Source: Candidatus Saccharimonadota bacterium (GTDB lineage: Bacteria; Patescibacteriota; Saccharimonadia; Saccharimonadales; Saccharimonadaceae). From it: a stretch of DNA of 55,575 bases. The DNA is taken from assembly GCA_030523715.1 (NCBI GenBank), contig JAUNHY010000006.1, positions 1-55,575 of the forward strand, given 5' to 3'. Of this stretch, positions 53,209 through 55,354 are shown in pieces. The notes beneath the pieces were generated by a model, which was given only the letters and a program-made list of their open reading frames with translations, was not told the DNA's origin and did no database searches. A program made the position numbers and the translations under genes. Numbering within the stretch: the stretch's first letter is position 1; the number at the start of each line of letters is the position of its first letter.

Positions 53209-53766
53209 TTATTCGTCGTCGCAGTCCTGCTCTTCGAAATCGATGCAGTAAACACTGCTCGGGTCGGTTAGCACGCCGAACACATAGCAGACGCTCGGTT
53301 CGCTTTCTTCTATGTAGTCGGCTGTCGGCGCATTATTGTCGATGTACTGGATGATTTCGCCGATCAGCTTAGTTTCGTCGATTTCAACCGGATCGTCCAC
53401 ATCCACGGCCACCGCCACCAGCATGTAGTAGTCACAGTCACTCTCGACGGAAAACAGCAACACGGGATTATGCTCAACATCGAAGGCCCAGTAATCGTTC
53501 GCGGCCACCTCGTCGAATGCGTTGTGGATGCGCTCCTCCATGCGCACCGCTAACACGGCCAACGGGCCATCGGGGTGCTTGGAAGCGGTCATGATTTCGG
53601 GCGCTTCGTCCATGACGACTTCGCCCAGAGCCGAGTCGAAGCGCAAGCCAACCGAAGCCGCCGCCACCACGGCGCCATCCGGAAGTTGATCACATACGAG
53701 TTGCGCCAATTCCTGCAGGCCAGAGCCAGTCAGGTCGCCTTTTTTGCTTTGGAAATGTTCACTCAT
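53209..53766 (-). CDS. Unknown acidic protein
   Basis: 185 residues, very acidic (pI must be low), soluble. ATG at 53766 is 8-9 nt after AGGAGGG. The leader upstream holds an AGCC/GGCT hairpin and a TATAAT box near 53845-53851. The middle segment NDYWAFDVEHNPVLLF...LVAVAVDV resembles part of the 52691 product. No known domain. Function unknown. Confidence 0.75.
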   Translation of the reverse strand: MSEHFQSKKGDLTGSGLQELAQLVCDQLPDGAVVAAASVGLRFDSALGEVVMDEAPEIMTASKHPDGPLAVLAVRMEERIHNAFDEVAANDYWAFDVEHNPVLLFSVESDCDYYMLVAVAVDVDDPVEIDETKLIGEIIQYIDNNAPTADYIEESEPSVCYVFGVLTDPSSVYCIDFEEQDCDDE

Positions 53767-53898
53767 TGCGTTACCCTCCTACGCGTATTTTTAGCCTTGA
53801 GCTAGGCTGGTTCAAGAAAGGCCGATTCCTTCCTCATCTAGATAATTATATAATATTTTTAAAGATTAGTCTAGGCAGGTGGTGGCTCGATATAAGCA

Positions 53899-53927
53899 TT
53901 GACTTTTTAGTCAATCTGTGCTATAAT
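53899..53927 (+). promoter_or_regulatory. Promoter of the MFS leader transcript
   Basis: -35 TTGACT (53899-53904), 17-nt spacer, TGC plus TATAAT (53922-53927). The expected start of transcription coincides with the leader ATG at 53934. Confidence 0.85.
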
Positions 53928-53933
53928 GGACAT

Positions 53934-54035
53934 ATGCACAGTTGTAAGTCTGCATACTGGTTTATGGTCCTAGAGACTGTCGTAAATGACGGCCTACTTT
54001 GCATGCCAAATAACCAATACGCAGAAACTGTCTAA
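53934..54035 (+). CDS. Leaderless 33-residue leader peptide upstream of the MFS transporter
   Basis: The ORF begins MHSCKSAYWF and ends YAETV, with three Cys and four Met. Its ATG lies 6 nt after TATAAT, so the mRNA probably starts at this codon. It ends 9 nt before the first strand of the alternative stems at 54045-54147. Position and size fit a regulatory leader peptide whose translation senses a drug or amino acid state; the sequence itself matches none of the erm, mef or tet leaders I know. It could also be a chance ORF. Confidence 0.55.
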   Translation: MHSCKSAYWFMVLETVVNDGLLCMPNNQYAETV

Positions 54036-54044
54036 TTCTTGTAA

Positions 54045-54147
54045 ATCTAGATAAGTTTCAAAGCGAAAGAAGCACCTTATCTAGATAAAACCCCAAACAA
54101 AAGTCTCTCCTTTGAAATTTATCTAGCCGTATAAAAATTACGGCTAG
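54045..54147 (+). promoter_or_regulatory. Mutually exclusive RNA stems (attenuator candidate)
   Basis: Strand A (54045-54055) pairs perfectly over 11 bp with B (54076-54086). Alternatively 54047-54063 pairs over 17 bp (one G-U) with C (54110-54126). A third stem D, CTAGCCGTA (54123-54131) with TACGGCTAG (54139-54147), overlaps C by 4 nt. A:B allows D; A:C disturbs it. D is followed by CTTTTT at 54158-54163, so D may act as a weak terminator or shield the ribosome site. Confidence 0.7.
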
Positions 54148-54187
54148 TAACTTAAAACTTTTTCGCAACAAAAAGGAGGGATGTTTT

Positions 54188-55354
54188 ATGCGAAAAAATA
54201 ATCCAAAACGCAATATGCGTCTGGTAATTCTGGAGTCGGCGGCGACGGCAGGCATCCTGGCGGTGCCGATAATGACTCCGTTTTACCTCAGCATCGGGCT
54301 CAACCAAGAGCAAATCGCAATGTCGCAGATGGCCTTTACGGTCGTCGTGATGTTGCTCAATTTGCCGCTAGGCTGGGTAGCAGACCGCTTTAGCCGCAAG
54401 TGGACAAACGTCATTGGCGACCTATTGGTTGCGATTGCGCTCTTGCTCTACTCTACGGCGCAGACTTTCTGGTTTACGGTTCTCTGTGAAAGTATCTGCG
54501 GAATCGGTTGCGCATTGTCACAGGGCGTCGATTCGACTTTGCTAAAACATTTCGCAGAGAAAGAAGACAAATCTGGCAAGTTGTTTAAGGACAAGTACGG
54601 CAAGATGACCTCGTGCAACCAGATTGCGTCGCTAGTCGTAATGTTGCTGGGTGGACCAATTGGCGCAATCAGCTTCCGTCTGGCGATTGCCATCTCCGCA
54701 ATTCCGCACATACTGGGCGCTATTGCCGGCATGCTCATCGTGGATGACAGCGATAAACTGAAAGCCGAAAGCAGCCCGCTCAAAGATATTGCGAGCTTAG
54801 TGCGCCGCAATATTGGGAATCGTAAACTACGCCTACGTATCGCCGCTTTTGCAGTAGCGCGCGAGGTAACACATGGCATCATCTGGGTGTTTACGCCTTT
54901 GATGTTGGCCGTGGGGGTACCACTGGCGGTGGTTTCGATGGGCTGGGTAATTAATAGCATCGCCGCGTACCTGGGAACTAAGGTGGCACGCCGCTTTGTG
55001 AAGAAATTGCCGGCGTGGGTGCTCTTTATTGTGCCGATTGCCTTGGTGGGGACGGCGAGTCTGATTATGTTCCTAGATTTGAACATGATTACGATTTGTC
55101 TTTATGCTCTCTTTGGTTTAGCACAAGGCTGGAGCGCAACCACGATGATGCCACTCGTCAAAGAAGAGGTGTGTGCGGCCGAGCAAAGTTCGGTCGAATC
55201 GCTCGCAAGGGTATTCGCACAGCTACTCTACATTGGTGCAGTCTGGGCGATTAACCGTACAGCCGACATCGATACACGCTACGCTCTGCTCGCTACAATC
55301 CTCATCTTTGTGCCGCTCGCCATTCCAATTGCCTGCAAGTTGCGTAAAGAATAA
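54188..55354 (+). CDS. Major facilitator superfamily transporter (probable efflux pump)
   Basis: 388 residues, 12 predicted helices. Motif A of the family is visible between helices 2 and 3 (LGWVADRFSRKWTNVIG), with the acidic-basic pattern of proton-coupled exporters. The N-terminus is basic. A helix-5 motif C (G-x-x-x-GP-x-x-GG form) is only loosely met in LLGGPIGAI. The substrate is unknown. GGAGGG lies 7 nt upstream of the ATG. The 250-nt upstream region holds a strong promoter, leader peptide and alternative stems, typical of inducible resistance genes; drug efflux is therefore a reasonable guess. Confidence 0.88.
   Translation: MRKNNPKRNMRLVILESAATAGILAVPIMTPFYLSIGLNQEQIAMSQMAFTVVVMLLNLPLGWVADRFSRKWTNVIGDLLVAIALLLYSTAQTFWFTVLCESICGIGCALSQGVDSTLLKHFAEKEDKSGKLFKDKYGKMTSCNQIASLVVMLLGGPIGAISFRLAIAISAIPHILGAIAGMLIVDDSDKLKAESSPLKDIASLVRRNIGNRKLRLRIAAFAVAREVTHGIIWVFTPLMLAVGVPLAVVSMGWVINSIAAYLGTKVARRFVKKLPAWVLFIVPIALVGTASLIMFLDLNMITICLYALFGLAQGWSATTMMPLVKEEVCAAEQSSVESLARVFAQLLYIGAVWAINRTADIDTRYALLATILIFVPLAIPIACKLRKE

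Follow-up and report, generated by a model that had tools for sequence, protein, structure and literature searches.

In the trp, his and ilv attenuators, a chain of alternative helices is read by the translating ribosome. The ilvBNC leader is a ribosome-mediated attenuator of this amino acid operon type (PMC11857589). The attenuators of ermB, ermC and their relatives combine a short leader ORF with mutually exclusive hairpins that hide the start of the controlled gene, which is exposed by ribosome arrest (PMC11264731, PMC4335068). In the mef(E)/mel and msrD leaders, a leader peptide and alternative stems lie upstream of an MFS efflux gene or of the gene that shares its operon (PMC4335068, PMC10314930). 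The leader described here is best read as a variant of ribosome-sensing attenuation that is not placed in the erm family.

This leader precedes an MFS transporter gene in the window, the whole 55,575-nt stretch of DNA that was analysed. Its host is one of the tiny gut Saccharibacteria, in agreement with the CPR bacterium proposed by an earlier, sequence-only reading of the locus. The features of the locus are as follows.

53899-53927, +: sigma-70-type promoter TTGACT-17-TGC-TATAAT, 11/12 match, extended -10
53934-54035, +: leaderless leader ORF of 33 codons, MHSCKSAYWFMVLETVVNDGLLCMPNNQYAETV (open reading frame; frame kept in relatives)
53938-53953, +: strand L5 (53938-53943 and 53949-53953), partner 54021-54031 (window MFE; swap test)
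54024-54034, +: strand 0, GAAACTGTCTA, the leader's last codons and stop, pairs with L5 or strand 1 (covariation)
54045-54064, +: strand 1, ATCTAGATAAGTTTCAAAGC, near-invariant, pairs with strand 0, 2 or 3 (alignment)
54076-54086, +: strand 2, CTTATCTAGAT, pairs with strand 1 (98.4% of cells paired)
54103-54113, +: anti-SD strand, GTCTCTCCTTT, overlaps strand 3, pairs with 54172-54182 (MFE; swap test 1/5000)
54110-54126, +: strand 3, CTTTGAAATTTATCTAG, 17-bp partner of strand 1 (94.7% of cells paired)
54123-54147, +: stem 4, 9 bp, CTAGCCGTA / TACGGCTAG (95.2% of cells paired)
54159-54197, +: start-codon hairpin, 54159-54167 with 54189-54197, SD in loop (swap test)
54172-54182, +: Shine-Dalgarno (SD) region of the pump gene, AAAGGAGGGAT (sequence)
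54188-55354, +: MFS transporter gene, 388 aa (Pfam MFS_1, E 1.7e-25)

The promoter is the top sigma-70-like match in its region, which bears out the consensus promoter of the sequence-only reading. That reading had also placed the mRNA start at the ATG of a 33-codon ORF; the ORF was found, and its ATG at 53934 lies 6 nt past the -10 element and coincides with the predicted +1. The 27 leaders described below share the order TTGAC-17-TGn-TATAAT-6 nt-ATG, leader ORF, strands 1, 2 and 3, stem 4, SD and MFS gene. The 17-nt spacer, the TGn, the -10 hexamer and the distance of exactly 6 nt to the ATG are present in 27/27 leaders, and the -35 element is TTGAC in 26 and TTGCA in one. Across the whole genome of the window (G000), TATAAT-N6-ATG occurs 81 times versus 6 for the reversed pattern, an excess that is absent for TATAAT-N12-ATG (20 versus 15 reversed). 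Leaderless starts thus appear common in this genome, and leaderless mRNAs seem to be widespread in the window's Saccharibacterium. A divergent gene at 53209-53766 (-) encodes a 185-aa acidic protein without Pfam family; it has its own sigma-70-like promoter at 53845-53873 (-), and a further CTAGAT stretch lies near it at ~53838.

With the MFS protein as query, orthologues of 53-84% identity were found at 14 Saccharibacteria loci, and the same leader is present in all of them. Using pattern and covariance-model searches, we obtained 27 distinct leaders from four Saccharibacteria genera of one family, and none outside this family. Among 380 genomes sampled across the phylum, matches were confined to the window's genus. 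The MFS gene is present in 24 of the 45 genomes of this genus and the leader in 23 of these 24; the pump gene of the other genome, G219, is cut by a contig end. The leader was found in 0/21 genomes of the genus that have no MFS gene, genome searches placed it upstream of no gene other than the pump, and the strict pattern gave no leader in viral contigs. In these genomes, the leader thus appears always to accompany the pump gene. One weak peptide match, L004, contains internal stops and no strand 1 and was dropped as a leader. A tRNA-Cys/tRNA-Leu pair lies downstream of the pump gene in the window and also near the pump in 10/16 of the scanned relatives' stretches; from these shared neighbours, the locus was probably mostly inherited in place. 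Pump genes interrupted by a frameshift or stop were seen at L075/L083 (G199), L014 (G201) and L073 (G087). The G199 leader has also drifted, its stop being moved and the gap from stop to strand 1 being 25 nt.

Across the 27 leaders, the leader ORF comprises 29-40 codons. Frame 1 is open in 21 of the 22 leaders compared, frame 2 in one and frame 3 in none. Conservation of the peptide is loose, with a pN/pS of 0.57. At silent sites, the leader exceeds the pump gene of the same genome pairs 3-5-fold in conservation (pS 0.20, 0.14 and 0.14 versus 0.67, 0.68 and 0.60). This silent-site conservation points to selection on the RNA as well as on the frame, and the comparisons indicate that the ORF is kept open by selection on its frame. 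The placement of a short upstream ORF on the same predicted transcript, with its frame and start position conserved, is reminiscent of the erm leaders. These differ in having 8-20 codons and their own ribosome site, whereas the 33-codon ORF here is leaderless. Mef(E)L and MsrDL, of 8 and 6 residues, have known arrest. By inspection, no known macrolide arrest motif (such as R/K-x-R/K) was found in 20 aligned leader peptides, which also sets the leader apart from erm, as do its MFS target gene and its Saccharibacteria host. The aligned peptides contain no repeated regulatory codon. In L074 (G330; leader at ~1410-1790), a TAG stop occurs three codons early and strand 0 is kept as RNA; an insert of well over 100 nt separates strands 2 and 3 of this leader.

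Strong selection at the RNA level within the ORF, and the retention of strand 0 in L074 behind an early stop, would also suit a ligand-binding riboswitch, with L5:0 and its inner hairpin as the aptamer and an ORF that plays a secondary part or none. We consider this improbable, as the frame is open in 21/22 leaders, the ATG always lies exactly 6 nt past the -10 element, and the inner loops lack the sequence conservation expected of an aptamer core. In addition, the leader gave no Rfam match at the gathering score, where the window yields two tRNAs alone, and a permissive-threshold Rfam search returned chance-level matches only.

RNA folding gave a z-score of -4.6 for both 53934-54195 and 54036-54195, and none of 200 shuffles was as good. 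The sequence-only reading had described a strand starting nine nt past the leader stop that can form either 11 perfect bp or 17 bp with one G-U, and both pairings were located. The strand-1 part ATCTAGATAAG (54045-54055) forms a perfect 11 bp with 54076-54086 (helix 1:2), whereas CTAGATAAGTTTCAAAG (54047-54063) forms 17 bp including one G-U with 54110-54126 (helix 1:3). Strand 1 begins 10-13 nt past the leader stop in 25/27 leaders. A third stem of 9 bp, said to overlap the second choice, was recovered as stem 4, in which 54123-54131 pairs with 54139-54147 and CTAG is common to strand 3. Three pairs of stem 4 and five pairs of 1:3 are altered on both sides, and a U-A pair of 1:2 is changed to C-G in L072. 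In stem 4, the 5' arm and the loop, GCCGTATAA, hardly vary, a conservation that goes beyond the needs of pairing or of our model.

Pairing of strand 1 with the end of the leader ORF forms 10-11 bp with one bulged A (helix 0:1), and 97.6% of its cells are paired; the shuffle control of this helix is not strong by itself, because strand 0 hardly varies. In L070 and L073, a strand 1 GTCCC is matched by an A-U to G-C replacement in strand 0, despite the peptide change, and L075 combines a strand 1 GTTCC with a strand 0 GGAAT. The L5:0 duplex has a mean of -17.5 kcal/mol for cognate and -10.8 for swapped strands, and none of 5000 permutations was as low, in a swap test that, like the others used here, ignores relatedness and is conservative because swaps between close relatives keep pairing. 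Covariation thus indicates that helices L5:0, 0:1, 1:2, 1:3 and stem 4, together with the occlusion of the pump start, have been kept. The mutually exclusive helices 1:2, 1:3 and 0:1, each of which covaries, resemble those of erm-type leaders, from which the locus differs in that the ORF end is itself a pairing strand and the central strand has three partners. A pairing of strands 2 and 3, as in a strict 1:2/3:4 to 2:3 scheme, is perfect only where ATAAA follows strand 2 (window, L006, L007) and by inspection is not conserved; nor is one between stem 4 and the hairpin at the centre of the ORF.

The sequence-only reading had proposed a comparison of the leader and its stems in related genomes, and in this comparison the stems covary and the ORF is conserved, its peptide loosely. 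The competing stems of its switch scheme were confirmed but the scheme was incomplete, as it lacked L5, strand 0 with its two partners, the anti-SD:SD pairing and the start-codon hairpin, all of which are new here. The leader and its competing stems are real and far from chance. The CTAGAT-type repeats are palindromic and could come from duplication, as would fit a leader that does not switch but simply stabilises the mRNA, or inverted repeats that arose by chance near an AT-rich promoter region. We regard this as very improbable: it is largely refuted by covariation at several helices, and family-wide conservation and the tight link to one gene also stand against it.

The pump protein matches the general Pfam MFS_1 model only, and not a drug-efflux model of the TetA(P)/Tet(40) type. 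In NCBIfam, TetA(P) and HP1165 come nearest to it, both far below cut-off; the TetA(P) match reached E 1.8e-12 and 46.8 bits, where the curated cut-off is 750. A PDB sequence search with the pump protein gave no match. The MFS gene encodes a putative drug pump.

The start of the pump gene is predicted to be hidden by the anti-SD:SD pairing, clear in the window's clade, and by the start-codon hairpin in most others. The anti-SD:SD pairing is found mainly in the window's clade and is weak in L017, L024 and L034. The start-codon hairpin, which involves the first codons of the pump gene, has -7.2 kcal/mol for cognate versus -4.6 for swapped strands (0/5000 permutations). In the window's clade, opening of the SD is 2-6 kcal/mol cheaper with 1:3 than with 1:2, whereas in leaders outside this clade 1:2 and 1:3 give nearly equal computed costs for opening the pump start. 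A universal equilibrium release of the SD by 1:3 was thus rejected, its effect being small or absent outside the window's clade, and this small effect in other clades is the main weakness of our model. A start region hidden in the default fold, as in erm-type leaders, may apply to the window's clade, where anti-SD:SD is clear; outside this clade, its link to the switch is weak.

A short ACTTTTA-like stretch is often seen 3' of stem 4 in relatives. The sequence-only reading had noted that the third stem precedes a T run; the T run is present, 12 nt 3' of the stem, but it does not make a terminator. No intrinsic terminator was called at 54036-54187 (+), including stem 4 and the T run, in contrast to the mef(E) and msrD leaders, which use a Rho-independent terminator. 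For this reason, the output of the leader is likely initiation of pump translation rather than termination of transcription. The high conservation of stem 4, the CTAG it has in common with strand 3 and the short U stretch (often ACUUUUA) 3' of stem 4 in many relatives could still be explained by transcription attenuation, in which stem 4 and this stretch would terminate or pause RNA polymerase and 1:3 would act as antiterminator. Besides the lack of a called terminator, the run of U is short and broken and does not adjoin the stem, and 1:3 takes only 4 bp of stem 4; we give transcription attenuation the same low standing as the riboswitch.

On balance, we favour a translational attenuator, in which the position of the ribosome on the leaderless leader ORF controls translation of the MFS gene. 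The attenuation proposed by the sequence-only reading is supported in part: comparison bears out its leaderless ORF, its competing stems, its link to a transporter and an attenuation-like logic that is conserved with covariation. The switch is richer than it described, and ribosome stalling in the leader and a drug as inducer are putative. An alternative helix chain, here proposed to be read by the ribosome, is a likeness to the trp, his and ilv leaders; the locus differs from them in having no single-codon run and no terminator, and in preceding a transporter gene and not a biosynthetic one.

By default, L5:0, 1:2 and the pairing of strand 3 with the SD would keep the pump off. With no ribosome on the leader, L5:0 would be formed, and strand 1 would fold with strand 2 once the latter is made. 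In 25/27 leaders, strand 1 starts 10-13 nt past the stop, about as far as the footprint of a ribosome at a stop codon reaches. Such a ribosome would cover strand 0 and end just before strand 1, leaving it free to join strand 2. With 1:2 formed, strand 3 and the anti-SD stretch would cover the SD and the pump would again be off. A ribosome that stops partway along the leader would instead open L5:0 and leave strand 0 uncovered, so that 0 could take 1 before 2 exists. Helix 0:1 would withstand strand 2 and keep the CAAAG end of strand 1 exposed, giving strand 3 a toehold; formation of 1:3 would then remove the anti-SD strand and open the pump SD. The likely signal would be slowed translation, possibly caused by a ribosome-binding drug that the putative pump exports.

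In structure calculations, which treat nested folds at 37 C and ignore pseudoknots and tertiary contacts, the mean P(0:1) with strand 1 just out rose from 0.47 to ~0.8 when a mid-leader ribosome was imposed, and fell to 0 when the ribosome sat at the stop. Strand 3 could dock on the 1:2 hairpin loop. In path calculations for 14 leaders, 0:1 faced a barrier of ~11 kcal/mol towards 1:2 and ~5 towards 1:3, and a change from 1:2 to 1:3 had to cross ~15. From this pattern, 0:1 would shield strand 1 from strand 2 and hand it to strand 3, and 1:2 once made would be trapped. As 0:1 is lost at equilibrium once strand 2 is out, the model needs kinetics. We thus propose, tentatively, a kinetic toehold switch in which the leader's coding end caps the central strand for a time, barring one partner and passing the strand on to another that emerges later; a pause within the leader may in this way be stored as a long-lived pump-on fold.

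The same helices would support an attenuator of opposite sign, in which a halt in the leader lets 0:1 withhold strand 1 from strand 3 and keeps the pump off, whereas 1:3 would form and turn the pump on when translation runs freely or ribosomes are absent, as might suit, for example, the exporter of a metabolite in plenty. At equilibrium and without a ribosome, 1:3 is indeed the dominant helix at the point where strand 3 has only just come out. We find this sign unlikely, since with a low barrier from 0:1 to 1:3 and a trapped 1:2, helix 0:1 favours 1:3, and the peptides have no repeated regulatory codon.

In the literature searched, we found no relevant report of leader peptides or riboswitches in Saccharibacteria or of leaderless attenuation in CPR bacteria, and this control element is described by no Rfam family and by no paper in this literature. 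To our knowledge, little is known about gene regulation in Saccharibacteria (CPR). If the toehold reading is true, the Candidate Phyla Radiation would have in this leader its first described ribosome-sensing attenuator. A 2024 review lists inducible expression as a missing tool in Saccharibacteria and suggests riboswitches (PMC11665869). The leader would provide a ready-made, native control element that responds to ribosomes and whose strand handover is a design of its own. It would also point to a pump of possible importance in the gut and rumen during exposure to antibiotics. The use of a leaderless ORF as a translation sensor would thereby become a directly testable question.
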